From contig FN648365.1 of the NCBI GenBank assembly GCA_000310025.1, forward strand, positions 128,935 through 192,934: a DNA stretch of 64,000 nt. Direction: 5' to 3'. This DNA is from Ectocarpus siliculosus. Its lineage: Eukaryota; Sar; Phaeophyceae; Ectocarpales; Ectocarpaceae. A model generated the notes under the pieces. It was not told the origin of the DNA. It made no database searches and saw only the letters and a program-made list of their open reading frames with translations. The position numbers and the translations under genes are program-made. Shown piece by piece: positions 21,370 through 62,610 of this stretch (positions are counted from its first letter, which is position 1; the number at the start of each line of letters is the position of its first letter).

Positions 21370-23932
21370 CTAGTTACCATCTGTGGAAGACAAATCGTGA
21401 GCAAATGCGGCGGCACCGCATGGCTGAGCCAGAGTAAGCTCACCAAAAATTACGGTCACCACGGCGTTTCGCAAGCAGAGTGCGGTAAGAGCGGTCGCTA
21501 AACCGCATCCAACTGTCTCTCCCGAGGAGCACGTCATGATGCATGACACCATCAGGGACAACGTACGCCCAAACAGCGAGAGAGGAAGTAGGAAGGCCCT
21601 TGAGAAGAAACTGCACGCTCAACGGACAATAGTCGAAGTTTGAAGTGGAGCAAATCCGCCGAAACCTCCCCAACAGCGAGGTTGGGTTTGTTTCTCAGAT
21701 AACGACGAAGCGGCCGAAGCGGCTTTCATGGATTCCCACGCAGATACACAAATAAAAGACTGCGGGGAACCCGTGTCCAAAAGGGCAACACATCCAAACC
21801 GAACAGAAGCCGAACCACTGTGAGTGAGGATTTGGGTGGGGAAAGAGTCATCATCGATGGTAACAACACCATCAACCAAATCCGGACCTTGTTCAGGAAG
21901 CAAAGGAGAGGAAGAGGATGGCGGGGTGCAGACACGGCCCAAACAGCGGTGTCAGGATCCGATGGAACATTCGCAGCGTATTGCGAAAACGAAGCGAATC
22001 GTTCAGTCGACGGAGGGCGTGAGGCCGTCCGGAGACGCTGGTGCGTGGAAGGGCTAACTTCATAGACCGCGTTGTGTTGAAATGACGCCGAAACGTGATC
22101 GCTGGGAGGCAGCAAACGAGAGCTGCGCTCGGGTGGCGGGGCATTGCATCGCAAAAGACTGCGTACTCGTTGAAGGGCGTTGCCCAACAAATTGAGGCCA
22201 CGCCATCGAGAGGTGCATTGAGCGTCAGGATCATCGGTTTAAAGGCCAATGTCCCAAATACAGTCGTAGGGACTGGCTCCGGCAAGGATTTTGTCGCCAA
22301 ATCCGAGAAGATGATCGCGCAACTCGGAGTTTTGACTAAATTTTGCGTAAGAGCCAGTGAGCACAATATTTTCGCGCTCGCGTTCCCAAAGAGGTAGATC
22401 GAAACCACGGACACCGCGGCCAAACTTCTTGTGCAAGGCAGGATCAGACACGCGCATGATGTGCTGTACAGCGCTATAGTCGTCGAAAAGGCCAACTTTT
22501 TCCGCAGCGAAAAGCTGCTCAGCACACGAGTATACCACTCCATCGACCACAAAAGTCGACGGTGTCCATTGGGAAAAGGGAGAGGGGGGCTGCCAAAAGA
22601 AGACCATGTCAGGAGTACAATACTCGTTAGACGGGTCGAAGACAGCGGGAACTGCAGGAGCCGAAACACCTGGAGTGTGGTCAGCCGAAGCTGAGGTTGC
22701 AGCTGAAGCTGGTGTACCCGAAGCGGAGGCAGCCGAAACGTCCGCATCGTAATTGACGGCACGGACGTCCATGGGGACAGTCTCGGGTATGTCAGAGACC
22801 GGCGAAGAATCGACCGGAGCCAGATTGTTCGCAATGATTGGGCCAGCGACATCACGCCGGGTGCGCCACAATTCGAAACCTGAAGAAACGCCTAGTAAGG
22901 TGTCATTCAACAGGCTGCTTTCGCTAGGAACGACCGCCAAGGCCGGGTCGGTTAAAAAACCAAACCGGGCGTGGTGCTCCTGGCCATCCCTCCGTGACAA
23001 GGTACGCGAGACCGCCGGCTGTTCGGAGGTCACTCCGGGAGGGTCCTTCCGAAGCGGTGGTGTCAACACTGTCGAAGTCGGCCGCGGCGGCCTGGTATTG
23101 GGCGCCGTGGGGCGAACGTGCGTCGGAAGGGATGGAGGGCTCGAAGACGATCCATGGTCGAAATATCTTGTGGCGGAATCTGATGGTGTTCGGCGGTCAG
23201 GACCAAGAGAACAATGTGATTCGAAGCCAGGCGAATTCGACCCTGCAACTTGCCGGTCGGAACCATTGAAATTAGCTACCGGTGCAACAATCGAGGGCGA
23301 ACCCTCAACGCAAGCAAGCACAGACGAGTTGAGCGTATCCGAAGATTCACCCGAGGTAAACAATTCAGGCGATTCTTCCTCAATCGTCCAAAGCGCATGG
23401 CTACGGCCGGTCTGATCTGCAGACGACGGGGGGAGCGAACGAGCGGTGCCCGACAAAAGAGCGGTACTCAATGGCCCCGAAGGTCCTACGGTTCTGTTCC
23501 CGCACCTCAAGACAGCACTCGCGCCAGACTGGTTAGTTTCTGACGGAGCGCCAGCCCGAAGAGGCAGAGACGCAGAGGTGGCAGACGATAAGTGCGATGA
23601 AGAAGGTGGGACGAGAGCATATGTCTGGATACCGACCTGATCAACACTGGGAGAAACAACGGATACCGAAGTATGGTTGTTATTGTTCGGCACCGAAGTA
23701 CCAGAAGGGATAACATTCACCGAAGTGCGGTTATCGTTGCGTAGGACCAAAGTGCTAGAGGCAACAGTGTGTGACGGCGCGACAGATACCGAAGTATTGT
23801 CGATTGTTGCATAAGACCGAAGTATTAGGGGCAACAGAGCGTGACACACGAGCGTCTTGTGGTGAACGAGACGAAGTCCCCGAAGATGCTGAAGGCGGAA
23901 AGGAGGGAAGAAGGCGAACCACCACCGATGAG
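21370..23932 (-). pseudogene. pol: pol remnant: linker, broken NADAR, protease (copy A)
   Basis: Starting just after the gag UGA, the frame encodes the Ser/Thr/Pro-rich linker and then the NADAR segment at about 22160-22607. Compared with copy B this NADAR has AEASP changed to AGASP, DRIWGIG changed to DCIWDIG, and the next CAA codon changed to TAA (ORF end 22239). A one-base length difference from copy B near 23900-23910 also throws the start of pol out of frame. The retropepsin part persists in broken frames at about 21620-21940. The product cannot be a functional polyprotein. Confidence 0.85.
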
Positions 23933-32830: not shown

Positions 32831-33979
32831 AATTTCTGCTAGAGATCCTCAAAATAGCTGCGTTCGTCTTAGCCCTGGTAGGTACCCGCAGGTCGTGGCG
32901 CTTCTCGAGTGCCAGCCTGACCTCTCGAATGTTCTGCTTCCGCCGTTCTACAAAGTTGTCCAAACCCTCCGCCTGCTCCTGTTTTCCATCCTCGGTGGGC
33001 GGTATCAATGAGTCCAGCGAGGTGCGGGGTTTGCTGCCAAAAGCAGTTCAAACAGAGTCATGCGTGGGTGAACAGAAGTGTCTGGCAGCGTGCGTTTGAT
33101 CCAGATAGCAGGCGAGACGTATTCACCCCAACGGTCATCCAGCATTTGCACAGCTCTGCTAACAACTCTTGCAACCATCCTCCTGATCTCTCTACTGCGC
33201 CATGCCCACGGGCATGATGTGCTACTCCAACAGTGATGTCTGCCTCTGTAACCAACGGCACAGGTGAGATACCACTTCTCCGCCGAAACGAAAGTCAAAC
33301 ACAGTTCCAACAACGATCGCGCTACGCCGATAGCTTCCTTGGTGGGAAGAGGGAAACCGGGAATTTGGATGCACGGTCTACCACAAGCAAGGTGTACTTG
33401 TTACCAGAAAGCGATATTGTATCGATTTTCAGTAGGTCAATGTCAAGCTCATCCCACGGTTCTAGCGGTCTTCACGGTAGCATCGGTACACGTCTACTGT
33501 ACTACTTGGTCTTTTCGTCGTCGGCACCTACACGACAAAACGTACTGGCGAACATCTCGTGCGAGTTTGGGCCAATGAAAGTGATCCCGAATTAGTGCCG
33601 AGGTTGCTCCGACTCCTGCGTGTCCATGCAATGTGTGAACTAGAGCTAGAATGTCGGCCACCATGCATTTCGGGGTTGCTATCAATGGCTTGCCACTCTC
33701 GACCTCAAAACGCAGCACTCCCTTACTATTCACACTGTACCCTGTACTACCATCCCCCCCAAGATCCCGCTGAACTTGGCCCAAAAGGGCATCCTCTTGC
33801 TGGTGTCGAATGAGGGTGTCTGGGTTCTTCAGCACGCCCAACGCCCTGTGGATCGCTGTCGATCCAGTATCCACTGCCGACCTAAGGGGCAACTCCCCCC
33901 CTGCTGAAAGCCCCTCCCCTTCGTCGGTCGACCTCGTGCACTTGGGCTGAACCGTCTCCGTTCGAGGCTCTGGGGCCAT
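32826..33979 (-). pseudogene. pol: degenerate integrase (second Gypsy element)
   Basis: An H-H-C-C zinc-binding segment (HTLHGHAG...CRCRRRK) lies at about 33650-33510. Further down are the core motif HHARGHGAVERSGGWL, which contains the catalytic Glu (about 33200), and an integrase-like YVSPAIWIKR segment. The tail is FVERRKQNIREVRLALEKRH (about 32940). Frames are broken and the first Asp motifs are not clearly readable. Confidence 0.7.
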
Positions 33980-42688: not shown

Positions 42689-44753
42689 CCAGCAGGAAGT
42701 CCTCCGCCTCTTGGCGCGCAGCGTGCGCCTCCTCCGTGCGCTCCAACAGCAACTCTCGCACCACCCTCGACTCTAGCCCTTCCGCCAGGTGAAGTACCGC
42801 CGAGAGCATCCAGCGGGTGAACTCCCCCGTGCTGCTGACGGGCAGGCTTGCCACCAAGGCGAGCAGGGCTTCGGCACTTGTCGGCGACAGGGGCGACTCG
42901 TACCTCGGGTTTCGGCGAGGGTTCTCCCTGGTGCGGCGGCTGGTGAGTTCCGCCGGCTTGTCGAAGCGGGCGAGCCGCCGGGCCTCTGGCCCGCGGAGCG
43001 CCGGGACATCCGTCTCGCTGTCGCTGTCAAGACCGCTGCCGCTGCCGCTGCCGCTGCCGTCACTACCGCGGCCGCTACTGCTGCGGCGGTCGTCCTCGCC
43101 GCCGCCCACATCGGCCATGCCGGCCGACGTGGTAGATGGGGCGACGCTCGCGCCCTCCCTGCTCGAGGGGGCGCCATCGCCAGCGTCGCCCGCGCCCCGA
43201 CTCCTGGGGCGCGGCCGGCGCCACCGCCGGCGCTACGCACGCGGGTCAGACCCGCGGGCCCCGGGGCTGCCGTCGTGCCAAGGTTGAAACCTGGTCCTCC
43301 CTCCACTGGTTCTCCCTCCATCCTCCCTTCACCTTGGCTCGACGCGCCCTCCCCGACCTCGTCCTCCTCAGTCGTGAACTCTTCGTCCTGCTCTGCGACG
43401 GAAGGGAGCGACTGGGGCAGGGCAGTGGGGCCGGCGGGTACGGGTTGCCAGGTGAAGTTGCGAGTTGTGATCGGTTGGCGTTTTTCGTTCAGGATGCGCA
43501 CGCAATCACGGTTGGTGTTGATTCCCGGGCCGAGGTAGAAGCGTTTTTGGGCTTTCGGCTTGGATTTGTGTGTGCGCTTGACCTTGTATAAGGCAGATGT
43601 GAGGAACGGGTACGTCGCCCCCGGCCGGGGCAGGTGCCCGTGCCACATCTCGTACGCTGATTTCTTCTCTGGGTTGGATCTGGTTGAGGTGCAGTTCAGG
43701 GCGTTGCATGCCCAAGCTATGGCCTCGGCCCAAAGGGAGGGGTAGTTCGGTGCTCCGGGGTAGAGAGTTGGTGCTTGGATACGGGCGGCTAGTGCTGCAT
43801 CCTTGATCAGACCCAGTGCTCTCTCAGCTACACCGTTGTATGCTGGGCTGCGTGCGGGGGTGAACTCCTGTTTGATGCTGAACTTCCGGCACACCCTGAC
43901 GAACTCTCCCTCAAAAAACTCTCCTCCGTTGTCAGATCTCACGACCATGATATCGGACTGGGCACCGTCTGCCCGGTTTTCTGCAAGGTACCTCTCGAAT
44001 GCCTCGGCAGCGTCTGACTTGTTTTTCAAGAAGTAGACGCGGTTGCATATCGTGCAGGCATCCCTTACAATGAGAGTGTACCACTTCGCCCCCAAGCTCT
44101 TCACCCTTTGCCTTCCCACTCAAATCCAAAAAAACTCTCTGCAGCTTCTTAACTGCTCGGGTTGACGTCCTGTTGGGGATCGATTTGGATAGCCCCTTTG
44201 CCGTCGAGCACCCCATGCACTCCCGGAGCTCGCCCACCAGCGTCGTCCCCTGCTGCTTCGCCGTGGTCCTCAGCAGCACCTCGTGGGAGTGGCCGTGCGC
44301 GCAGGGGAAGTCGTTGATGTCAGCAGGGGTACTGGGCGCTTTTGCGTTGCCAGGAGCAATTGCGGCATAGGCTTGTTCGGAGTGTGTGCGGAAACCGTTC
44401 CCGATCACCGCATCGGGGGGAGTACACCGACTCCCCCCCCTCCATCGCCCCCCCCCGGTGTTTGCCATCGGGGTTGGGTTTTCGTCGCTTGGCAACGACG
44501 TTGTAAAACAAGCCCCCCCCTCAGTGTTTGCCATCGGGATTGGGTTTTCGTCGCTTGGCAACGACGTTGTAAAACAAGCCAATTCACTTCGTGAACTCGG
44601 CAACCAGGTTACCGTTTTTGTTTTTTTACCTCGGGTTAGTTTTTGGCGGTAACCATAATGGTGGTCGAGTAGATCATGTTGTGCGGGGTGGAGAACCCTC
44701 ACTCCGCGCAACGGGGGATGATCGCACCATGTTGTGTTAAAATGGTCAAGCAT
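42618..44753 (-). pseudogene. pol: copia pre-integrase, integrase and linker
   Basis: A zinc-binding GAG-pre-integrase segment (HGHSHEV...CMGC) lies at about 44320-44190. It is followed by VFLDLSGK (first Asp) and, after a frameshift near 44100, the core in 44119-42773 with VRSDNGGEF (second Asp) and YNGVAERALG (catalytic Glu). The later part of that frame and the overlapping frame 43118-42618 form an Ala/Ser/Gly-rich linker that should lead into RT. A direct duplication of about 60 bp (44458-44516, 44525-44580) interrupts the front of this section. Confidence 0.85.
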
Positions 44754-44872
44754 CCTCGAGGCAGTTACACAGTGCTTACAACTGTCTCTGGAAGTGAAAG
44801 CACCAGAAAATAAATTAAGTCATACGTAGCTGTCATCCGTACGCAAGGAAGTAAGCACAAGATGCCGAACAC
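44648..44872 (+). repeat. dispersed repeat R3 nested in copia element
   Basis: Homologous to 11358-11600 in piggyBac intron 4. It sits between the protease and pre-integrase parts, separating them, so it inserted after the copia element did. Confidence 0.6.
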
Positions 44873-45032
44873 CCTTAGCAGGATGCAGCTCACCCTTCAT
44901 GCGACTCGCCAAATACCTCACGGCGCTTCCCTCTTGGTGATGTGAGAGCCTGGTCCGGTGAGAACCCGGCGTGCTCCGTCCCGGCTTTGTAGGGATGCGA
45001 GGTCAATGGCCTAACGACTACGGCATGCACGA

Positions 45033-45464
45033 CTATGAGTATGAGTACACCCCCCCCCTTCTCCATCTCCAACTCGAACTCGTGTTTGTTGAGGTTTTCG
45101 CTTCGAACCCGTCATCGAAGAGGGAAGTGAGAGATACTAGGTTGTAGTCTAGCTGGGGTACGTGTGCAACCCGTTTCAACAACAGGTCGGTTGTCTCGTC
45201 GCGCGAGCTAAGGGTTGCAGTTACGTCGCCGTACCCTACAATAGGGAAGGTTTCTCCGGCGGCGACGCGCACACGTCGATCACACTCTTCGTAACGGACG
45301 AACCCGTCAGAGTTCGCAAACATGCGGGAGGTAGCGCCGATATCGGCAACATACCTCCCCCCGCCTAACCTGCTCCATACCCCCTCGACCAACGACTCTG
45401 TTAAACTCGCCTGAGATGTCACCGACCACCAGCGCTTCTTGTGCCACGTCCAGTGCTGTGGCAT
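45033..45464 (-). pseudogene. pol: copia protease remnant
   Basis: The frame contains YVADIGATSRMF, matching the copia retropepsin pattern in which D-S-G-A is usual; here Ser is replaced by Ile at about 45341. Downstream VPQLDYNLVSLTSL is the typical end of a copia protease. It overlaps the end of the gag frame. Confidence 0.8.
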
Positions 45465-46864
45465 CCGCGGACGTCCCCCTCAACGGCACTTCCATCACAA
45501 GCACCGCGTTCTCGGTCGGGCACTTGGTCTTGTCGTGTCCGTAGCCCTTCCATTGTTCACATCGCACGGGCTTGCTCTCGGTGCTGTCGGCCACCTGGTG
45601 ACCCTTCTTGCCGCCGCCAGCCTTTGCGCCACCCCCTCTCCTCTTCTGGTTGCCGCCGCCGCCGCCGCCGCCCATCCGGCGGCCGCTGTTGCCGCGGCCC
45701 GCCGCTCCTCCCGCCGCAACCGTCTCTCGCGAGGAGAGCATACTCCGCCCTCTGCTGGCCCTTCGAGGCCTTCCTGCCCTCGGGTAGGCTGCGTGCACCG
45801 TGCTCACGATCCTGACGATCTCGGCCCTATCCAGTGCCGTTGCTGTCACCAACAGGAACTTCGCTTGATGGTACTCGGGTGTCAGCGAACCAACGAAGTG
45901 GGCGAGTACAAATGGTGCGTCAGCGTTGAGCGCTTTTTCGCGCAGGCGTGAGTACAGCAGCTCGAGCGAGTATAAGTGCTCGATGGGGGGTTTCTGCTGC
46001 TGTGAGCGGTTATCGTGAAGTCGAACATTTGCTTCATCAGGGCTTGTTTCGAGCCCAGCGATGCCAGATCGTAGATTTTGTCGAGTTCCGCAAGGATCTC
46101 TTTTGCGGTCTCGCATTTGTTCACGATCGCCTTGTCGGCTTCTCTGACGACGGCAGTGGCCGCAAAATGGAACGCTTGGAGGCCCCTCTGGACCTCGTCG
46201 CTCGTGTATTCGAAGCGGCACAGCTCCGAGCTTGGCACGTTTTGGTTGCCGACGGGTGCATGTCTCTCGTTGTTGCCGACCAATTGCCCTTTCAGTCCTA
46301 CAGTGTTGGCCGCTTGGGTAAGCGACTTTCTCCACGAGCCACACCCATGGCTGCGACTCTCCCCTTCGAGACGCGGGGCATTGACTGTGACTCTCTTCAT
46401 GTGGCTACTGCTGTAGCCATCGAGGAATTCTCCATTGCCTCGAATCACGGGTATCTCGCCTGGGGGGTTTAACCCCCTCCCTTCCCCGTTTTCCGGTCCT
46501 ACGCCCGGGCCCACTCCGGCTAGTCTCGCAGGATTCGCTCCCGATCTGCTGACCCAGCCGCCTTCCAGCAGCTGACGTGGTCCTTGCCCACCATCTCTCG
46601 CTCGCTGGAGAAATCCCTTGCCTCCGCCGAGCGGCTGCGTGGGTTGATCTTGGCCTCCAGGGCGGCAACCCAGCCGCCCCTTCTGGCTGCATCCGCCACG
46701 ACGCTGCCAGGCTCCTTCTTCTTCATCGACTCCTCCACCAGGGCCGCCAATCGCAAAACCTGAAGTTTCAAACTTGAAAGCTCCGCGTCGCGGCCCTCTT
46801 GCGCCGCCGTGCGAGTCTGTTCCTCGTTGCCGACGGTGCGATCATTGTCTCCGGCAGAGCTCAT
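45307..46864 (-). pseudogene. gag: copia gag remnant
   Basis: ATG at 46864 starts a charged N-terminus. After a frame change the helical UBN2-like Gag body follows (about 46400-45950, with a LAELDKIYDLASLGSKQALM-like helix), then a Gly-rich basic stretch. The zinc knuckle reads CEQWKGYGHDKTKC, with its second Cys changed to Trp. Frameshifts at about 46500 and 45950 break it. Confidence 0.75.
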
Positions 46865-51668: not shown

Positions 51669-51936
51669 TGTAGTGGTATGCACGCGTGATGAAGTCTGGT
51701 TGACCCGTGAAGAAGAACTCACTTGTTGTTACTCTTGTAGAACAGCAGCAGCAGTAGCTGTTGCCTTGGGTATCGGTAGGAATGACACCAAGGGGCACAG
51801 GATCCTCTGCACAAGCAGGGGCTACTAGATCCTGTCCCCTGCTTTTTATCCTTCCGCGGAGAGTTACATCTCTCCGCGTCTTCTAGAAGGAACCAAGCTC
51901 TTCTATGTTCCGTCTACACATCTGAATCCTATAACA
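51669..51936 (-). repeat. 3' LTR of Gypsy copy B
   Basis: Minus strand starts TGTTATAGGATTC and ends CACTACA. It contains the stem CGCGGAGAG / CTCTCCGCG with a 6-base loop, a TATA-like GGATAAAAAG, and a second stem GGGGCACAGGATC / GATCCTGTCCCC. Identical by eye to 62343-62610. Confidence 0.95.
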
Positions 51937-52512
51937 CTAGCCCACCCTGGAGGTTCTCATACGCAGATACTGTAAAACCTCGGAGTCTTGACAAGCAATT
52001 GTCGAGTCTCTAAATGAAAGTATCGAGGATGTGGAGCTCCAAAACAGCACAATTCACCCTCCCACACCTCTCACTCGATGAGTCGCAAGACCATCGTTTG
52101 ACTTCTAAAACGACAAAAAGACACAGACAGGAAGGAGCTGACGGGGCTAAGAAAAGCCTACGACGACCGGAAGAAGATCGGAACCAAAGAAAGGAAGACA
52201 CAAAGAAAGGAAGAAAAACAGAAAAGAAAAACAGAAAAGAAAAACAAAGGTCGTCAAAACGACAAAAAGAAAGGGTCACTGCAGAAACCACAACAAGACC
52301 GGTATCGTAAGAAAACGATAAGATACGCCATTCACGCAGTCGCCACGGCAGTGTAGAAGGGGCATCAATGGGCGCGAAACACCTACATGTCGTGACCAAA
52401 CGCTAAAGGCACAAAATAAAGCGCGGAGAAAGCGAAAACCAACCAAGGCTAAAAAAAAACAACCCAAACAACGCTGAAAACAACAGAAAGCCAAGACAAC
52501 TAGCACGTCGTC
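51937..52512 (-). other. 3' untranslated interior of Gypsy copy B
   Basis: Lies between the end of the integrase frame and the 3' LTR. A pyrimidine-rich block (minus strand; A/G-rich on plus) spans about 52090-52270. CCAGGGTGGGCTAG next to the LTR is the likely priming tract. No domain found. Confidence 0.6.
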
Positions 52513-54215
52513 TTAATGGGGGCGCGCAACGTTATCAGGCAACGAATCAGTCCCGGGGTCACCACGCGACATGTCGACGTTGCGAAGGATCCCCTTAAAA
52601 AGGGCACTGCCGCTGTGAACTTGAAGGCACCAAGATCCGGAGACGGCGGTTTCAGCGGTGGAGTAGCGAACATCAGGAAGGGCGAGCTTGACAGGGCCAG
52701 GATCGTCCAAGAAGCGGACGACGTAGAAGTCGGACGGTAGAGGCGGTCCAGTAATCTTGCCCAACCACCAGAATCCATCACGAGCTTTGTACCAGAAGAA
52801 GGCGCCGGCAGGTAGCGGAGTATTGGCGAAGCGACGGTCCCAAGTTGAACGAGAGACGAGCGAATAACCCGAAGGCAAAGCTCGCTCCCCTTTAGCGCGG
52901 GCCATCTCGCGGGTGGCCGCACCAATACGCATCGCCCGATAGCGACGATTCGTTTGGCGATGTTGATCAGGCGAACCCGTCCAGTACCGGAGAATGTGGG
53001 GCTTGGAATGCTGGAGGTCCATCTCACGTTCCCAAGAAGGACGAAGAAGACCTTTCCAATGCGTTTGGTATAAAACAGCGATGGTGCCACCACGGCCACG
53101 AACAGACTGATGGCCACTAATGCGGTCAACCTCGAGACGTTCGACCGGAGTCGACACGTCGTCTTCCGTAACATGGTAGGGAGGAGATATATTCGCATAG
53201 GAGTTTAGCACATACGGTGTAAGGCCGGCAGGCAGGAACCGAGGCAAGTCTTCAGTGTCATGCGGATTAGCGCAAGGCTTGCAACGCGCAACTGACACAC
53301 GGTTTTTCGAGTCCGGACCCGGCAGATCCGATGGAAGGTCCAAATACAGTAATTTGGAAGCCAGAGGACAACCGTCGGGAGCGTCAGGACACGGACCCAC
53401 GGCCAAGATCTTGAACGGACCAGTCCACAGGAAAGACAACTTAGCCTTGAGGACCTTGTCATCCGTGCCTGAACGAACACCTTGGCGAATGGTAGATTCG
53501 GTGTTGTACACCCAAACCCATCCACCGACGGTGTATGAGGGGACCTTGCGCAAAGCATCCGATAGGGCGGAGTTACGCCGCTCAATCCTCGAAACGGACA
53601 GGTTGTGCTGTTCGCGAACTAAATCGTAAGAACGACGTTGGCGATCAGCAGCCAGATCGCAATACTCAAGTTGATCGCGATGCAAGCTTTGGTGGCCTCG
53701 AGCATATGGATGCTCAAAAACCGTCATCGGCATGCGTGGTAGTCGGTTCATATGCACCTCGTTGGGCGCCAAACCAGTAGCGGCACTAACCGAATTGTTG
53801 TAGGCAAACTCAACGTGCGGCAAATGAATGTCCCAATCATCTTGCCTCTCATTGACGACATAGCCAACATCTGAGCCATAGTGTGATTGACGCGCTCCAC
53901 ACCCCCATTGCCGTTGGGATGGTAAGAGCTGGTAGCCACTTTGCGTATAGCCAGACGGGCGTATACAGCCTGCGACAGTTTGGGAACAAAACTGAAAGCC
54001 ATTATCAGACAAGAGACTCAAAGGGCAACCCCACAAAGGGATATACCGATTGACAAGTACGTCAGCGGTGCCTTCGGCGGTGAATTCTGCAGCCGTAACC
54101 GCGTACATGTCAGCACGGCGGCTGAAACGGTCAGTGAAAAGCAGAATATATGTGTTTCCGCGCGGTGTCAACGGGAGGGGACCGAAATAATCGACGCTCA
54201 CCGATAACACCAGGG
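52513..54215 (-). pseudogene. pol: integrase core, chromodomain and Tudor-like end (copy B)
   Basis: This frame lies one base off the main pol frame, with the join near 54200-54215. It opens with SVDYFGPLPL (first catalytic Asp, 54190-54192) and LLSDNGFQF (second Asp, 54004-54006). The stretch to about 53859 is out of frame; the correct core, GVERVNHTMAQML with the catalytic Glu at 53895-53897, lies in the adjacent frame from about 53980 to 53859. The frame then resumes with FAYNNSVSAATGLAPNE and the C-terminal barrel. A chromodomain follows (about 53151-52981; YQTHWKGLLRPSWEREMDL), then a Tudor/Agenet-like segment (about 52809-52657; DGFWWLGKI, YVVRFLDD). As read, integrase is inactive; sequencing error cannot be excluded. 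Confidence 0.85.
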
Positions 54216-57200
54216 CCCGAAGGCAGCGGAAGGCACAAAGTAGGCCATCGAGGCGTTTGACGAGATGACTTGCGAGCTTGGCATCGCAAACAATGCCGTA
54301 CCCACCACTTCGTGCAAACACTCATGCCAACCCACCAATAGAAACGTTCCAGCATGCTAAGCGTGCGAGCGGCACCGAGGTGGCAGGAGGCATCAGCGTG
54401 ACAGGCTTGCATGATCCACGGACGCATGAGCATGGGAACATAAATCCGAATGGGTTCGTCGTTGAGAAGGCGAGCAGCACGCCCGCCAGGACGTGTGGTC
54501 GTAGACGACGGGGGCGCTGTTTGCTTGCGAACAAGCAAGACCAAACCATCATCGTCAACATGTAACCGGCCTTTGTTAGACAGGTCACGAATCTCCGACA
54601 GAGGGGGTCGACGAGCGGACGGAAGATGATCCAGGAAATCCGGAGGGAGAGCCGAAGGCCGACCCAGAAGGATGAAACGAATAGCTGCATCACAAACAGG
54701 TTCGTTACGTTGCTCGCGAGCCCAATCAGCATGCGAGAAACGTTCGACAGACGCCCGGAAGGCTAAATCTGCAGAGGAATGTAAAGCCGCCTCGATAGAA
54801 GAGGGGGCCGATTCCTGAGGCTCCGGCTGCAATCCACCCGAAGGCAGAGTAGCAGCGGAAACCGAAGACGAAGGCGTATAAGTGGTCGAAACCAAATGCG
54901 TCGAAGATTCCGAAGAATCGGGAGCAGCAGAAGACTGCTGGGCAGGAGCAACCGAAGTCGCAGGATGCGTCGAAGACGCAAGATCCCTTCCACGAGCCAG
55001 AGGCGTATGGAGGTCTGGGATCGAAGTGTCAGCACCAGGAGCCGAAACCAACCTGGTCAAAACGGGGGGCGTAGTCGATGTTGATTGCGCTGGCGGGGAA
55101 CGTCGAAACGATCGGGGCGAAGCGGAAATCCGAGTAGGAGTAGGCAGATCCTCGGAGAAACCATAATCCACGGGCGGGAGGGGCGTGCCTGCCACAACCG
55201 CCGTGCGACGGCGAGTTCGCGTGGAAATCAGTTGAGTAGGGTCGAGAGTCCGTCGTGATGCTGCAGGCGGCGAGACGGTCGACGAAGACTCGGGCTCGAG
55301 AGCCAAAATGTCCTCCACCGAAGAATGTAAGGAGCCAGACCAATCGAGGGTCCTGTCACTCAGGCGTCGTAGCGAAGGAGACAACCCGCGGGAGTTGTTA
55401 GACGGCCAGAGTGCGATGTTCCAGACGCCATGCGGAGACGAAAGGCCTGACGGCGAGAGACGTGGACCATGCCGACGGAAGTCGACAAAATCATCTGTAG
55501 AGGGGGCCAGCCCACCCAAGACCGAAGTCGGGGAAGTCGGGACGAGCCCACCCAAGCCAACACCCACGGCGCGATGGCCAGAAGGCGTAAGGCCACAAGA
55601 ACGGATGAAGAATACGCTCTCCTCATCGTCATCCGGTGTCAAACGACTGCGACCAGATCGGTCACATTCCGCCGCATCGATCGGAAGGCGAGAGAGGAAA
55701 TCAGCGTTGCCATTTGCTGAACCCTTGCGGTACTCGAGAGTGTAATTGTAGGCGGTAAGAAATTCAAGCCAACGCTGAACGCGGGCATTGTTCTCCCCCA
55801 CCTTGGCAAAATGCTCAAGAGATTTGTGGTCGGTAAAAATGCGAAATTTCGTGCCCCACAAATAACCGCGGAGTCGTTTGATGCACCATACGATGCTACC
55901 CGCCTCGAGGTCGAGGGGAGTCCAATGACGTTCGGAGTCCAAAGTAGCTCGGCTGATGAAAACGATGGGCCGGATGGAGCCATCCGGCTGTTCTTGTTCG
56001 AGAGTCCCGCCGAACCCATCGCGACTAGCATCACAGTAGAGGCGAAAAGGTCGCGAGCCGTCCGTAACGGCATCCCAATCTGGATAAACCAAGACAGGAG
56101 GGTTGGCCAACTCAGACAGCAAGACGCGAACAGCTTGCTCCATGGCAGAGGTGAAAGCGAACGTCGCCTGCTTTTTGAGAAGAGTGGTCAGAGGTCGAAT
56201 TCGCGTGGCCATGTTGGGAAGGAACTTGCGGTAGTAGCTGAGGCCGCCGAGAAGAGAGCGAAGTTGTTTAACATCCTTAGGCATGGGCATTTTGGTGAGG
56301 GCCGCAACCTTGGCCCCGTTAGGCCGAACACCGTCAGGGGAGATGGTGTGGCCGAGGAAATCCGCTTCGGTAGCGCCAATGGTGGCCTTCGGTGGGGTGA
56401 GTTTCAAGTTGTGTGTGCGCAAGCGTTCAAACAGAGCGCGCATGGTATCAACATGAGAAGCCGGGTTGTCGTCGAAAACGATCAAATCATCCAAGTACGA
56501 TGCAACACCGTGGAGATTTTTGATGACTTCGTTGACCACCTTGCAAAACCACCCAGGGGCAGCAGAACTGCCCTGAGGCATCTTCAACCACTCAAAAAGC
56601 CCGGAAGACGTCACGAATGCCGTCAAAGGGATTGTATCACGGTGAACCGTGATTTGGTGGAATGAAGACTTCATGTCGAAAAGGGAATAAATTCGCCCTT
56701 TCAACAACTTGTCCAAAGTATCATCAACTCGAGGAATCGGGAGCTGGCTCAAAGCACAGAGCTTGTTGAGCTTGCGATAGTTGACAGTGATGCGAATACC
56801 ACCAGATTTCTTCGGTATGACTACCAAAGGACTCGAGTAGGGCGAGGTCGAATGTTGGATCAGACCAGCCGCAAGATATTGATCAAGGATCGCGTCAACT
56901 TGTTTCGCCACCGGGGGGTTAACGCGGTATGGACGAGACGTGACGGGTGCACTGCCCGGAGGAACTGTAAACTTGAAAGGAAAAAGCGAACAAGATCCAA
57001 AGTCGGTGGGGGAACTCGAGAAGACATCATGATAGTCGCACAGGACGTTACCAAGCTGAGTGATGACATCCGGAGTCCAACCCGGACCATGGAGATCAAA
57101 AGAAATCTCACGGAGATGGCAGGGGAGCTTATCCCATACGTGGGAAAAACTCTGACGTTGTTCAGACGTCAACCGCTCGAGAAGAGCAGGCGGAGGCGAC

Positions 57201-60200
57201 GAAAGAGAAGCACTGGCAGAACCAGGGTCCTCTTTGCCGCTTTGCGACGGCGTGGGTCGCTCATGCAAATTATACACGAAGGGGTCCTCAATGCGATGCG
57301 TGGCAGACGAATCAATGCCATCTGTCGAAACAGGACCCGGAACCCAGCTGCCCGAAGCAGTGGTGGGATCTTGAGCCGCAGATTGAAGACCATCGCTCAA
57401 ACTGTGGCGAGACACAGCACTGAGAGGCACGCGAAGAAGGGGAGCCGAAGCTGTACCCAGAACGTCGCCTGGTTCGAGTGAAGAGATACCCGCGAGCGGG
57501 AGTCGTTGGCAACCATTTTGCACAAAGTGTTCCTCGGAAGAAAACATAGCACATTGTGGAAGCATATCCACGAGATAGTTACCCACGAGGGCTGGAGAGC
57601 CATCGCTGCGTACCAAATTAACCGGAACAAGGCTATGTTCAGGGTGAAGTTGGACGGAATGTTTTCCAGCATAGCGAAGCTGGTAGTTACCATCTGTGGA
57701 AGACAAATCGTGAGCAAATGCGGTGGCACCGCAACTGCTATGCTGAGCCAGGGTAAGCTCACCAAAAACACGGTCACCAGGGCGTTTGGCACGCAAAGTG
57801 CGGTAAGAGCGGTCGCTAAACTGCATCCAACTGTCTCTCCCAAGGAGCACGTCATGATGCATAACACCATCGGGAACAACGTACGCCCAAACAGCGAGAG
57901 AGGAAGTAGGAAGGCGCTTGCGAAGAAACTGCACGCTCAAACGGACAATAGTCGAAGTTTGAAGTGGAGCAGATTCGCCGAAACCTCCCCAACAGCGAGG
58001 TTGGGTTTGTTTCTCAGACAACGACGAAGCGGCCGAAGCGGCTTTCATGGATTCCCACTCAGATGCACTAATAAAAGACTGCGGGGAACCCGTGTCTAAA
58101 AGAGCAACACATCCAAACTGAACAGAAGCTGAACCACTGTGAGTGAGGATTTGGATGGTGAAAGAGTCATCATCGATGGTAACAACACCATCAACCAAAT
58201 CCGGACCTTGCTCAGGAAGCAAAGAAGAGGAAGAGGATGGCTGAGGGCACCCGGAAGACACGGCCCAAACAGCGGTGTCATGATCCGATGGAACATTCGC
58301 AGCGTATTGTGAAAACGACGCGAATCGTTCAGTCGACGGAGGGGTTGAGGCCATCCGAAGACGCTGGTGTGTAGAAGGGCTAACTTCATAAACCGCGTTA
58401 TGTTGAGACGACGTCGAAACGTGGTCGTTGGGGGGCAGCAAACGAGAGCTGCGCTCGGGCGGCGGGGCATTGCATCGCAAAAGACTGCGTACTCGTTGAA
58501 GGGCATTGCCCAACAAATTGAGGCCACGCCATCGAGAGGTGGATAGAGCGTCGGGATCATCGGCTTGAAGGCCAATGCCCCAAATACGGTCGTAAGGACT
58601 AGCTTCGGCAAGGATTTTGTCGCCAGATCCGAGAAGATGCTCGCGCAACTCGGAGTTTTGACTAAATTTTGCGTAAGAGCCAGTGAGCACACTATTTTCG
58701 CGCTCCTGTTCCCAAAGTGATGGGTCGAAACCACGGACACCTCGGCCAAACTTCTTGTGTAAGGCAGGATCGGACACGCGCATGATGTTTTGTAAAGCGC
58801 AATGGTCTTCGAAAAGACGAGCTTTTTCCGCAGCGAAAAACTGCTCAGCACACGAGTATACCACTCCATCGACCACAAAAGTCGACGGGGTCCATTGGGA
58901 AAAGGGAGAGGGGGGCTGCCAAAAGAAGACCATATCAGGAGTACAATACTCGTTAGATGGGTCGAAGACAGCGGGAACTGCAGGAGTCGAAACACCTGGA
59001 GTGCGGTCAGCCGAAGCTGAGGTTGCAGCCGAAGCTGATGTAGTCGAAGCGGAGGCAGCCGAAACGCCCGCATTGTAATTTACGGCGTGAACGTCCATGG
59101 GGACGGTCTCGGACATGCCAGAGACCGGCGAAGAATCGGCCGGAGCCGGATTGGTCGCAATAATTGGGCCAGCGACATGACGTTGGGTGCGCCCCAATTC
59201 TAAACCTGAAGAAACGCCTCGTAAGGTGTCATTCAACAGGTTGCTTTCGCTAGAAACGGCCGCCAAGGCCGGGTCGGTTAAAGAACCAAACCGGGCGTGG
59301 TGCTCCTGGCCATTCCTCCGTGACAAGGTACGCGAGACCGCCGGCTGTTCGGAGGTCACTCCGGGAGGGTCCTCCCGAAGCGGTGGTGTCAACACTGTCG
59401 ACGTCGGTCGCGGCGGCCTGGTATCGGGCGCCGTGGGGCGAGCGTGCGTCGGAAGGGATGGAACGTCCGAAGACGATCCATGGTCGAAATATCTCGTGGC
59501 GGAATCTGATGATGTTCGGCGGTCAGGACCAAGAGAACAACGCGATTCGAAGCCAGGCGAATTTGACCCTGTAACTTGCCGGTCGGAACCAGTCAAGTTA
59601 GCTACCGGTGCAACAATCGAGGGCGAACCCTCAACGGAAGCGAGCACAGACGAGTTGAGCGTATCCGAAGATTCACCCGAGGTAACCAATTCAGGCGATT
59701 CCTCTTCAATCGTCCAAAGCGCATGGCTACGGCCGGTCTGATCTGCAGACGACGGGGGGAGCGAACGAGCGGTGCCCGACAAACGAGCGGTACTCGATGG
59801 CCCCGAAGGTCCTACGGTTCTGTTCCCGCACCTCAAGACAGCACTCGCACCAGACTGGTTAATTTCTGACGGAGAGCCAGCCCGAAGAGGCAGAGACGCA
59901 GAGGTGCCAGATGATGAGTGCGATGTAGAAGGTGGGACGAGAGCATTTGTCTGGATACCGACCTGATCGACACTGGGGAAAACAACGGGTACCGAAGTAT
60001 GGTTGTTATTGTACGGCACCGAAGTACCAGAAGGGATAACATTCACCGAAGTGCGGTTATCGTTGCGTAGGACCGAAGTGCTAGAGGCAACAGTGTGTGA
60101 CGGCGCGACAGATACCGTAGTATTGTCGTTGTTGCATAAAACCGAAGTATTAGAGGCAACAGAGCGTGACACACGAGCGTCTTGTGATGAACGAGATGAG

Positions 60201-60256
60201 GTCCCCGAAGATGCTGAAGGCGGTCCGGGGGAAGTAGGCGAACCACCACCGATGAG
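54131..60256 (-). CDS. pol: Pol polyprotein: NADAR, protease, RT, RNase H, integrase N-end
   Basis: One open frame continues directly from the gag UGA (60257-60259). Numbering residues from the codon at 60172: a Ser/Thr/Pro-rich linker covers 1-420. NADAR covers 426-573, with SPFSQW, VVYSCAEQFFAAEKA, GRGVRGFD, AKFSQNSEL, LAEASPYDRIWGIGL and WRGLNLLGNALQRVR. Retropepsin follows with DTG at 703-705 and LLGRDSW. RT is at about 1080-1290, with catalytic YLDDL at 1236-1240. RNase H is at about 1375-1500 (YCDASRDGFGG, FTDHKSLEHF, GNADFLSRLP). After a Ser/Pro-rich spacer of about 330 residues comes the integrase zinc finger (HADASCH...CLRC, about 1925-1966). The frame then runs off at a shift and stops at 54131. 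The NADAR module is the family's unusual cargo. Expression probably needs UGA readthrough, since no separate ATG-led start is evident. Confidence 0.9.
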   Translation of the reverse strand, partial: LIGGGSPTSPGPPSASSGTSSRSSQDARVSRSVASNTSVLCNNDNTTVSVAPSHTVASSTSVLRNDNRTSVNVIPSGTSVPYNNNHTSVPVVFPSVDQVGIQTNALVPPSTSHSSSGTSASLPLRAGSPSEINQSGASAVLRCGNRTVGPSGPSSTARLSGTARSLPPSSADQTGRSHALWTIEEESPELVTSGESSDTLNSSVLASVEGSPSIVAPVANLTGSDRQVTGSNSPGFESRCSLGPDRRTSSDSATRYFDHGSSSDVPSLPTHARPTAPDTRPPRPTSTVLTPPLREDPPGVTSEQPAVSRTLSRRNGQEHHARFGSLTDPALAAVSSESNLLNDTLRGVSSGLELGRTQRHVAGPIIATNPAPADSSPVSGMSETVPMDVHAVNYNAGVSAASASTTSASAATSASADRTPGVSTPAVPAVFDPSNEYCTPDMVFFWQPPSPFSQWTPSTFVVDGVVYSCAEQFFAAEKARLFEDHCALQNIMRVSDPALHKKFGRGVRGFDPSLWEQERENSVLTGSYAKFSQNSELREHLLGSGDKILAEASPYDRIWGIGLQADDPDALSTSRWRGLNLLGNALQRVRSLLRCNAPPPERSSRLLPPNDHVSTSSQHNAVYEVSPSTHQRLRMASTPPSTERFASFSQYAANVPSDHDTAVWAVSSGCPQPSSSSSLLPEQGPDLVDGVVTIDDDSFTIQILTHSGSASVQFGCVALLDTGSPQSFISASEWESMKAASAASSLSEKQTQPRCWGGFGESAPLQTSTIVRLSVQFLRKRLPTSSLAVWAYVVPDGVMHHDVLLGRDSWMQFSDRSYRTLRAKRPGDRVFGELTLAQHSSCGATAFAHDLSSTDGNYQLRYAGKHSVQLHPEHSLVPVNLVRSDGSPALVGNYLVDMLPQCAMFSSEEHFVQNGCQRLPLAGISSLEPGDVLGTASAPLLRVPLSAVSRHSLSDGLQSAAQDPTTASGSWVPGPVSTDGIDSSATHRIEDPFVYNLHERPTPSQSGKEDPGSASASLSSPPPALLERLTSEQRQSFSHVWDKLPCHLREISFDLHGPGWTPDVITQLGNVLCDYHDVFSSSPTDFGSCSLFPFKFTVPPGSAPVTSRPYRVNPPVAKQVDAILDQYLAAGLIQHSTSPYSSPLVVIPKKSGGIRITVNYRKLNKLCALSQLPIPRVDDTLDKLLKGRIYSLFDMKSSFHQITVHRDTIPLTAFVTSSGLFEWLKMPQGSSAAPGWFCKVVNEVIKNLHGVASYLDDLIVFDDNPASHVDTMRALFERLRTHNLKLTPPKATIGATEADFLGHTISPDGVRPNGAKVAALTKMPMPKDVKQLRSLLGGLSYYRKFLPNMATRIRPLTTLLKKQATFAFTSAMEQAVRVLLSELANPPVLVYPDWDAVTDGSRPFRLYCDASRDGFGGTLEQEQPDGSIRPIVFISRATLDSERHWTPLDLEAGSIVWCIKRLRGYLWGTKFRIFTDHKSLEHFAKVGENNARVQRWLEFLTAYNYTLEYRKGSANGNADFLSRLPIDAAECDRSGRSRLTPDDDEESVFFIRSCGLTPSGHRAVGVGLGGLVPTSPTSVLGGLAPSTDDFVDFRRHGPRLSPSGLSSPHGVWNIALWPSNNSRGLSPSLRRLSDRTLDWSGSLHSSVEDILALEPESSSTVSPPAASRRTLDPTQLISTRTRRRTAVVAGTPLPPVDYGFSEDLPTPTRISASPRSFRRSPPAQSTSTTPPVLTRLVSAPGADTSIPDLHTPLARGRDLASSTHPATSVAPAQQSSAAPDSSESSTHLVSTTYTPSSSVSAATLPSGGLQPEPQESAPSSIEAALHSSADLAFRASVERFSHADWAREQRNEPVCDAAIRFILLGRPSALPPDFLDHLPSARRPPLSEIRDLSNKGRLHVDDDGLVLLVRKQTAPPSSTTTRPGGRAARLLNDEPIRIYVPMLMRPWIMQACHADASCHLGAARTLSMLERFYWWVGMSVCTKWWVRHCLRCQARKSSRQTPRWPTLCLPLPSGPGVIGERRLFRSPPVDTARKHIYSAFH
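58454..58897 (-). other. NADAR (YbiA/DUF1768) domain inside Gypsy pol
   Basis: About 148 residues cover the whole fold: the Phe-Ser-x-Trp entry motif, the AEQ...KA helix with the active-site Glu, GR.V..FD, KFSQN..L...LL, the EASP.DRIWG active-site loop and the closing WRG.NLLG.AL..VR. All of these hallmark positions are intact in copy B. Known NADAR proteins cleave N-glycosidic bonds: YbiA acts on riboflavin intermediates, and other members remove ADP-ribose from guanine. Action on the element's own nucleic acids is inferred only. Confidence 0.9.
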
Positions 60257-60259
60257 TCA
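60257..60259 (-). promoter_or_regulatory. in-frame UGA between gag and pol (readthrough candidate)
   Basis: Gag and Pol of copy B share one frame and are separated only by this TGA, followed by CTC ATC GGT GGT GGT. The same TGA with the same following bases is kept in the older copy A (near 23933). A stop positioned like this resembles gammaretroviral gag-pol suppression sites. No recoding has been shown. Confidence 0.6.
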
Positions 60260-62290
60260 TCCGCTGCGAGAACGACCACCATTTTGGAAGTTGCCAGGTT
60301 GACGGGCATTGTGATTGGTCGAAACCATGATGCCAGACGAAGGACCGGTGTGTGCATGTGTTTGTGGTTGATAGAGGGACAGAGCACCAGTGTGGTTGGT
60401 GTTGATCGAAGGGTGTTGCTGAGGGTGAGAGTTACCCGCAGAATTTCCTGGGGCATACCCACCGTTGTGCGAGTGTGTCTGATGAGTGTGAGGGGAACTA
60501 CCACCGTCGGAACGGCGATTCCCAGCGTGGTTTCGACGCTGAGAGGACGAAGAGGAAGAGCGCTGGTGGCGTCTACCCTGATTGTTTTGGCGGTTGTCCG
60601 CACTTTTTCGTCGAAAAGACCGCATACGGCCTTGCCAACGTCTAAAAGCAGCAGAATCGTCATTGAGGAGACCCAACTCGGGGTTCAGCAACCCACTAGA
60701 ATTCGTGAACGGTGCAACGCATTGCTTCATGGAATGGTCTTCACCCGAGCAGTTCAGACAGCGATTCCTGTTTTCGCGGAAGGCTTGCGAGCGAGCCTCT
60801 TGTGTCAACAAAGGAGTCCACAAAAAAGGATCCTCCGTGTTACGAAAACTAGAAGTGAGAGCGTATACATCAGACCAATCGGCTTGCGAAGCAGGCCAAG
60901 AATTATAGTTGCGTGTGAAAGGGTCAGCATCGTGCGAGTGTACCGGCAAAACTACAGGGTTCTGAGCGGAACCTGGTGCCCACTGGCCCGAAGGCGCGGG
61001 GGCGCGGTGTTGGGACCGCCGAGGCTGGGAGGAGCCACGCGTCGAAGACAACGAAAAATAAGATGAACCGCCGATAGCCGGGGTTTTATTTGTCGCTAGA
61101 GGCGCGAACGCCTCCCACATATCCGCAATCGACGCAAAGGGGGTGACGGCCGTGGCCAGAGCACCCGGGTACAAAATCGGAGACAAACTCGGAAATTGCT
61201 TGCAGACCGAATGCCGCACTATTTCTAGGACCATGGATACGCTAGGGGCCAAAGTACGCTCAGAACCAGTCACAGACGAAACCAACAGACGAAAAGCACG
61301 AAGGTAATCCGCGAAAGAAGTACCATCTGCTACTCCAAATTGTTGAAGCCTCAAAAACGACTCTTGACGGTCGCCGACATCAAATTGCTCCGCAAGATGA
61401 CGCAATAGCAACTGAAAAGCTTCTGGTCCGGTGGCGCCGCTGTCCAAGCTCCTCTTCACCTGCTGAAAGTAATCAGCAATGGAAAGGACAAGATCGGCAG
61501 TGGAGGGCTTGTCAGGGGTGATCGCACCCGAAAGTTTCTTTTCGAGAGGCCGTTCCCATCCAGGCACGTAATCAGTACTGTCCAACCCTTCGCTTTGGTC
61601 ATCACACAGCAACAATATGTCGGACAAGGCCGTTCGTGTTGTGCGGATGAGCTGTTGGTAGCCGTCCCCAGGCAACAAAGTTGAAGGGAAGGGCATGGTA
61701 GCGACATTTCCAACTTTTTTCAAGTTCAGAGTGATGTACGCCCGTTGGACAGTAACTACGTGAGCCTTGCGAACTGCCGAAGCAGCCGCATCTACGGTGG
61801 CTTGACGAGCATGTGCAATGTTGGAAGAAAGTGGCAAGACACTATCATCCGAAACGACAGGGGGTGCAGCAGCTGCAACCGAAGGAGCAGCAGGCGGAAC
61901 ACGATCCCAAGACGGTACAACATGGTGAACATCTTGTACGGGCACAAAAGTCGAAGGGGGGGTGGGGTTTGAGAACCCGGGGTTGTGTGCGATTCCTGAG
62001 TCTACAGCATAATCAGCGGTAGAAAAAACAGGAGGTGGAACAGTTTCCGAAGAAACGAGGGGGGCCGAAGCTTGTGCCATGTTCGAAAACGCAACACGAG
62101 TTTCCGAAGAAACGGGGGGGGCCGAAGCCGGAAGGTTCGAAAACGCAACACGAGTTTCCGAAGAAACGGGGGGGGCCGAAGCCGGAAGGTTCGAAAACGC
62201 AACACGAGTTTCCGAAGAAACGGGGGGGGCCGAAGCCGGAGGGACAAAATCATCACGCAACAAAAAACGAGCATCCGAAGTTGCGTCCAT
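60257..62290 (-). CDS. gag: Gag of Gypsy copy B (N-terminally shortened)
   Basis: 677 residues from the first ATG (62290); the frame is open back to 62341 at the LTR edge but without another ATG. Near the N-terminus a segment of 18 residues (54 bp, SAPPVSSETRVAFSN core) is repeated three to four times (about 62080-62245). A helical Gag body follows (about 61700-61200, with FLRLQQFGVADGTSFADYL). A canonical CX2CX4HX4C zinc knuckle, CLNCSGEDHSMKQC, lies at 60719-60760, and the tail is rich in Arg, Ser, His and Asn. Copies A and C carry about 130 bp of leader and a longer Ser-rich Gag start that are missing here, so this copy has a deletion next to its primer site. Confidence 0.9.
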   Translation of the reverse strand: MDATSDARFLLRDDFVPPASAPPVSSETRVAFSNLPASAPPVSSETRVAFSNLPASAPPVSSETRVAFSNMAQASAPLVSSETVPPPVFSTADYAVDSGIAHNPGFSNPTPPSTFVPVQDVHHVVPSWDRVPPAAPSVAAAAPPVVSDDSVLPLSSNIAHARQATVDAAASAVRKAHVVTVQRAYITLNLKKVGNVATMPFPSTLLPGDGYQQLIRTTRTALSDILLLCDDQSEGLDSTDYVPGWERPLEKKLSGAITPDKPSTADLVLSIADYFQQVKRSLDSGATGPEAFQLLLRHLAEQFDVGDRQESFLRLQQFGVADGTSFADYLRAFRLLVSSVTGSERTLAPSVSMVLEIVRHSVCKQFPSLSPILYPGALATAVTPFASIADMWEAFAPLATNKTPAIGGSSYFSLSSTRGSSQPRRSQHRAPAPSGQWAPGSAQNPVVLPVHSHDADPFTRNYNSWPASQADWSDVYALTSSFRNTEDPFLWTPLLTQEARSQAFRENRNRCLNCSGEDHSMKQCVAPFTNSSGLLNPELGLLNDDSAAFRRWQGRMRSFRRKSADNRQNNQGRRHQRSSSSSSQRRNHAGNRRSDGGSSPHTHQTHSHNGGYAPGNSAGNSHPQQHPSINTNHTGALSLYQPQTHAHTGPSSGIMVSTNHNARQPGNFQNGGRSRSG

Positions 62291-62342
62291 GAGGGACGGA
62301 ACTACTTGCCTTTGACGACCTGGTTCTGCCGACGACGCCAAG

Positions 62343-62610
62343 TGTAGTGGTATGCACGCGTGATGAAGTCTGGTTGACCCGTGAAGAAGAACTCACTTGT
62401 TGTTACTCTTGTAGAACAGCAGCAGCAGTAGCTGTTGCCTTGGGTATCGGTAGGAATGACACCAAGGGGCACAGGATCCTCTGCACAAGCAGGGGCTACT
62501 AGATCCTGTCCCCTGCTTTTTATCCTTCCGCGGAGAGTTACATCTCTCCGCGTCTTCTAGAAGGAACCAAGCTCTTCTATGTTCCGTCTACACATCTGAA
62601 TCCTATAACA
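62343..62610 (-). repeat. 5' LTR of Gypsy copy B
   Basis: 268 bp, matching 51669-51936. On the minus strand it is followed at once by CTTGGCGTCGTCGGC, the presumed primer-binding site (CTTGGCGTTGTCGGC in copy A; tRNA not identified). Confidence 0.95.

Follow-up and report, generated by a model that had tools for sequence, protein, structure and literature searches.

Background

The NADAR domain is already known from the Pol polyprotein of Ty3/Gypsy retrotransposons in the brown alga Ectocarpus (Dinatale et al. 2025, PMC12477816). In its available text, that report divides the Ectocarpus Gypsy elements into four lineages and places the domain in one (e.g. Gypsy-12_Ec32), all families of which carry NADAR in Pol, and also finds it in the open reading frame 1 proteins of oyster Tx1 long interspersed nuclear elements. 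A role in RNA processing is proposed there, with no test of it reported, and the domain is named, in the same text, without description of its active site. Here we investigate a 64,000-nucleotide stretch of the Ectocarpus siliculosus genome, G000:C50:128935-192934 (the window), which contains two copies of such an element: copy A, in which the NADAR domain is decayed, and copy B. The original prediction for this sequence knew of no described retrotransposon family with NADAR cargo; the Gypsy-12_Ec32 lineage of PMC12477816 is such a family. Added here are the state of the active site across copies, a UGA-C junction between gag and pol, the kinship of the domain with brown-algal host NADARs, and a distant Gypsy-type protein, P0160, with both Macro and NADAR domains.

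A NADAR domain in the Pol of a Gypsy element

The original prediction placed a complete, in-frame NADAR fold inside a Ty3/Gypsy Pol, between the gag junction and the protease, and this was borne out. The domain of copy B (58475..58927, against 57824..58093 for the protease) matches PF08719 over its full length, profile positions 1-163, with 157 bits against a curated cut-off of 35.1, and it has the YbiA fold of the NADAR superfamily. Glu, rather than Asp or His, stands at the E125 position, as in the YbiA subfamily, and the residues that contact ADP-ribose are present. From the sequence and a predicted model, the NADAR of copy B appears to have an intact active site. The features of copy B, and the NADAR of copy A, are as follows.

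51669..62610, reverse strand: whole long terminal repeat (LTR) element, copy B, with a 4-base target duplication CAAT on both sides (flanks TTCAAT and CAATGG)
62343..62610, reverse strand: 5' LTR (TG...CA), 268 bases
60257..62341, reverse strand: gag frame, 694 amino acids (aa) as listed from a TTG
60257..60259, reverse strand: in-frame UGA (then C) at the gag/pol boundary, probable readthrough site
54131..60172, reverse strand: first part of the pol frame, listed with 2013 aa, no stop before that of gag
58475..58927, reverse strand: NADAR (PF08719), YbiA-type
57824..58093, reverse strand: aspartic (retropepsin-like) protease core
56342..56818, reverse strand: reverse transcriptase (RT; PF00078), E 1.6e-26
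55748..56056, reverse strand: RNase H (PF17917), E 8.7e-32
54263..54439, reverse strand: integrase zinc-binding domain (PF17921), E 1.7e-13
53968..54198, reverse strand: integrase core (PF00665), second frame, E 1.8e-6, 28.6 bits, below the curated cut-off of 32.6
52981..53133, reverse strand: chromodomain-like region (PF00385), E 7.4e-4, 19.8 bits, below the cut-off of 25.1
52513..52899, reverse strand: Trp/Tyr-rich C-terminal tail, conserved in the family
51669..51936, reverse strand: 3' LTR (TG...CA), 268 bases
22149..22601, reverse strand: NADAR of copy A, decayed, with one stop and Gly at the E125 position

Copy B has the TG...CA LTRs and short target duplication of Ty3/Gypsy elements, and its Pol order is protease, RT, RNase H and integrase, with the integrase core in a second frame; pol is frame-broken within the integrase. 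The two LTRs show 0 mismatches over 268 bases, which together with the CAAT duplication indicates a probably recent insertion. Among named sequences, the best matches to Pol come from Ectocarpus sp. CCAP 1310/34. Copy B is best explained as a frame-broken, probably recent Ty3/Gypsy copy of a brown-algal lineage with a YbiA-type NADAR in Pol.

Some of the remaining assignments are less firm. The protease was called from its DTG motif and a modest fold match, its Pfam match being weak, and the predicted model of the chromodomain-like region is poor. The gag frame has no Pfam match at E 0.01; a zinc-knuckle-like CX2CX4HX4C was recognised in it by eye. The C-terminal tail gave no Pfam match and no significant PDB match in sequence searches. 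Its five short strands were considered as a Tudor-like second reader, which is not claimed (model pLDDT 36). No Rfam family was matched anywhere in the element.

Copies in the genome and selection

The domain is present in many copies of the family. The 189 Mb genome contains 230 candidate places for the family, and all 150 of those scored were over the family cut-off. We examined 52 copies: the 30 best-scoring loci, which are biased toward intact copies, 20 places of middle or low rank, and the two in the window. All eight active-site residues are present in 41 of the 52 (30/30 of the best-scoring, 10/20 of the further places, and copy B). Copy A, without an E125 equivalent, is outside this set, and two of the 11 copies without all eight residues, L066 and L069, are partly covered. 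The E125 equivalent is Glu in 50 of 52 copies, being Gly in copy A and not covered in one other; the K50 equivalent is kept in 47 of 52, with one copy not covered. Stops occur inside the matched stretch in 6/52. All 30 best-scoring copies match the lineage's protease adjoining NADAR, and for 29 of these the flank that was retrieved also contains a match to the RT piece.

Selection was assessed on the 39 of 52 copies with a single alignment, no stop and near full length; since only unbroken copies entered, the result covers active lineages. These form six subfamilies, between which pairwise non-synonymous differences (pN) are 0.16-0.37 and synonymous differences (pS) 0.72-0.87. The synonymous rate (dS) is saturated in 13 of the 15 subfamily pairs; the two finite pairs have dS of about 2.5 and 2.7, values high enough to make the estimates rough, with ratios of non-synonymous to synonymous rate (dN/dS) of about 0.17 and 0.07. 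Within subfamilies dN/dS is 0.17-0.6. The N-terminal linker beside NADAR is variable.

The gag-pol junction

The junction was read in 32 copies, namely 30 loci plus copies A and B. Going upstream from NADAR in frame, the first stop encountered is UGA-C in 15 of them, which represent five subfamilies, and in these the gag frame is open beyond the UGA for up to the 180 bases checked. The distance from this UGA to NADAR varies by subfamily (846, 876, 1005 or 1119, 1041, and 1302 bases). In 3 more copies this UGA comes second; in the remaining 14 it is not one of the stops reported, which number up to four per copy, many of these frames being broken earlier. UGA-C is a leaky stop context. The arrangement, one frame with a single conserved stop between gag and pol, is that of readthrough-type elements, and because the single in-frame UGA-C is kept in five subfamilies we infer a probable stop-codon readthrough site. 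The words readthrough, stop codon, frameshift and catalytic do not occur in the main text of PMC12477816.

Relatives beyond this genome

A search among short proteins returned 3982 NADAR relatives, the best 120 of which were listed, and two directed at long proteins returned 45 (P0121-P0165). The original prediction had called for a survey of related genomes for Pol reading frames that also match NADAR, and 38 of the 45 long proteins do join NADAR to the lineage's protease or RT; the seven that do not are P0153-P0157, P0160 and P0165. Those database members of the lineage that have an RT match are 55-96% identical to the window's RT, P0160 only 30%. This protein, from one ENA contig, is a Gypsy-type Pol in which RT, RNase H and integrase are followed by Macro (E 7.3e-19) and then NADAR (E 4.9e-52); the end after NADAR is chromodomain-like by eye. 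By its domain order and RT distance, rather than by the NADAR tree, P0160 looks like an independent capture of NADAR. A scan of viral contigs for a second Macro-NADAR pair gave two loci with the NADAR part only, and no Macro-plus-NADAR Gypsy was seen in literature search listings.

Two of the other long proteins outside the lineage have unusual contexts. P0157, of 1883 aa and labelled as from a Bacteroidota metagenome-assembled genome, has an N-terminal NADAR; by eye it also has a stretch resembling RT and an end resembling a tyrosine recombinase (R..HxxR..Y). Pfam matches its NADAR alone, and a PDB sequence search shows neither recombinase nor RT; it is perhaps a eukaryotic retroelement rather than a bacterial protein. 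P0165, of 1609 aa, combines RNA-dependent RNA polymerase domains with NADAR in precomputed domain assignments and is apparently from an RNA virus.

Origin of the domain

Where did the element obtain its NADAR? In the final tree, one branch (99/88) separates 40 rows from 36, and the 40 comprise the Gypsy NADARs, five NADARs that stand alone and 12 short sequences of unknown kind. The 40-row set was picked after the first tree was seen, and its brown-algal label rests on the named rows, Ectocarpus, Scytosiphon and Pylaiella. The stand-alone proteins, P0006, P0015, P0020 and P0022 from named brown algae and P0029, share the clade of the Gypsy domains and differ from them in being 209-252 aa long with no Pol; all but one show, by eye, an N-terminus rich in Cys.

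The first quick tree (172 rows thinned to 123 at 80% likeness) did not place the rows labelled Gypsy in one group (9 changes). In it P0162, a true member (RT 66%) with the start of its NADAR missing, stood next to P0165, the RNA-virus row (88), and the two were far removed from the clade of the window. P0154 was rejected as a Gypsy: neither the protease nor the RT of the window matches it, and it falls with P0156, a sponge protein. The second tree omitted P0165, P0157, P0085, P0162, P0154, P0116, P0119, P0101 and P0102 and drew a random 26 from the other unnamed rows; there P0160 and P0156 came together on long branches, which the program flagged as unsafe. The final tree additionally omitted P0156, P0074 and P0160.

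The host has its own NADAR gene, G000:C24:2125206-2127066, with at least two exons that are 81% and 92% identical to a NADAR of Ectocarpus sp. 13 AM-2016. Sequence kinship makes this gene a possible source or offshoot of the element's domain. A Gypsy-only clade without host genes was not rejected (approximately unbiased test, p 0.234), a result compatible with either direction, capture by the element or domestication by the host. The available text of PMC12477816 proposes horizontal transfer, as blastp matches outside Ectocarpus were almost all bacterial. Direct transfer from bacteria to the element is not favoured here, since the Gypsy domains group with brown-algal stand-alone NADARs. A separate NADAR fragment, L066 (G000:C24:331134-331391), shows 49-54% identity to several NADARs, among them the one from the stramenopile Chrysoparadoxa, and is perhaps an exon of a second host gene.

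Proposed function and alternatives

We tentatively favour, without quite calling it probable, a function in which NADAR is made at Pol dose, packaged, and strips ADP-ribose from element nucleic acid or protein, countering a host ADP-ribosyltransferase. Ribosomes that pass the UGA would make Gag-Pol, so that readthrough would set the NADAR dose equal to that of Pol, and NADAR would be packaged with RT. In the particle it may hydrolyse ADP-ribose from a macromolecule important for replication, the candidates being guanine-ADP-ribose in the element's RNA or single-stranded cDNA, or a protein of the element that has been ADP-ribosylated. Such removal would counter a host ADP-ribosyltransferase response, by analogy with what has been proposed for Macro and NADAR in RNA-virus polyproteins. 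A macromolecular target is favoured over a metabolic role because NADAR lies in Pol, guanine-ADP-ribose is an in vitro substrate of known NADARs from several subfamilies (PMC11543638, PMC11125620, in their available text), and a distant Gypsy pairs NADAR with Macro. The suggestion in the original prediction, that the element may erase host ADP-ribosylation, is a guess, if a reasonable one; it fits the apparently intact ADP-ribose contacts, the selection on the domain and the distant Gypsy Pol with both domains. Nothing was found to bear on its other suggestion, a tuning of nucleotide pools.

Several points weigh against this proposal. Exon-level searches of the host genome, which intron-split genes can escape, gave 0 matches to DarT and 0 to KptA/TRPT1, and identified no nucleic-acid ADP-ribosyltransferase; they gave four PARP-domain stretches and one Macro stretch. 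PARPs mostly modify proteins. The ancestral job may be metabolic, since the host has its own NADAR gene, and the element's NADAR is above the cut-off of TIGR02464, which NCBIfam names riboflavin-intermediate N-glycosidase. Four of the 41 copies with all eight residues carry a stop in NADAR, and the selection result speaks for active lineages. The RNA downstream of the UGA in copy B folds no better than chance (z +0.99), and P0160 comes from a single contig. In the available text of PMC11125620, E. coli YbiA and a phage NADAR did not rescue cells from DarT1.

Could the domain instead clean up metabolites? It would then retain the ancestral YbiA cleavage of N-glycosidic bonds in small molecules (riboflavin intermediates, free ADP-ribose derivatives), perhaps of a soluble NAD-derived signal, and would not act on nucleic acid. 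The TIGR02464 match and the stand-alone host gene are consistent with this, and phage NADARs have been argued to act mostly on soluble ADP-ribose derivatives (PMC9503650, available text). However, the same source favours macromolecular targets for the NADARs of eukaryotic RNA viruses, the in vitro activity on guanine-ADP-ribose points the same way, and the link to Pol dose and the particle and the Macro domain of P0160 would be left unexplained. We consider it unlikely.

Alternatively, NADAR may recognise ADP-ribose or a base carried by RNA, by chromatin or by a PARP target, for packaging or targeting, with catalysis not selected. The chromodomain-like reader in the same Pol suggests that the lineage uses targeting modules, but the counterparts of E125 and K50, which matter for catalysis in a studied NADAR (PMC11543638, available text), are kept in nearly all copies, and a pure binding role seems quite improbable. 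That the domain is an ancient chance capture persisting as a folded spacer between Gag and protease would suit the tolerance of change seen in the adjoining linker, but is already disfavoured, and very improbable, given saturated synonymous against low non-synonymous change, the kept active-site residues and the apparent second capture in P0160.

If NADAR does remove ADP-ribose from nucleic acid in the particle, this would suggest that eukaryotes use ADP-ribosylation of bases to defend themselves against retroelements, a defence of which we know of no direct case. More broadly, retroelements may have taken up ADP-ribose hydrolases more than once (the brown-algal Gypsy, whose NADAR is akin to that of its own host lineage, the P0160 lineage, perhaps P0157) as a tool of replication or counter-defence. 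In that case eukaryotic hosts would restrict retroelements, in a real but so far unrecognised way, by ADP-ribosylating the nucleic acid of these elements; this wider view is rather doubtful. With the active site apparently intact, the domain under selection, the UGA junction and the kinship with a host gene, the function becomes testable in a brown-alga model.

Other mobile elements in the window

Three further traces were seen. Positions 11606-12241 hold part of a DDE_Tnp_1_7 transposase (PF13843, E 5.6e-10), which we take to be PiggyBac-like. Another retroelement remnant, at 33497-33979, has an integrase zinc-binding domain (PF17921, E 3.6e-13). A Copia-like element was recognised by eye at 42776-46344, with an integrase core in 42776-44119 that is below the cut-off (E 3.4e-4).

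Comparison with known systems

The Gypsy-12_Ec32 lineage has a C-terminal chromodomain; in copy B the PF00385 match is below its threshold (19.8 bits against 25.1) and the model of that region is poor. P0160 shares with the window element a Ty3/Gypsy-type Pol with NADAR, and differs in that its NADAR follows the integrase and adjoins Macro, whereas that of the window precedes the protease. The NADAR of Phytophthora nicotianae (PDB 8bau), which acts on guanine-ADP-ribose in vitro (PMC11543638, available text), is an oomycete protein outside any Pol polyprotein. Macro-domain open reading frames have been reported in fish endogenous retroviruses (PMC4977317, available text). The positive-strand RNA viruses treated in the available text of PMC9503650 likewise carry an ADP-ribose hydrolase-type NADAR or Macro inside a replication polyprotein, but there it stands beside an RNA-dependent RNA polymerase, not RT and integrase.
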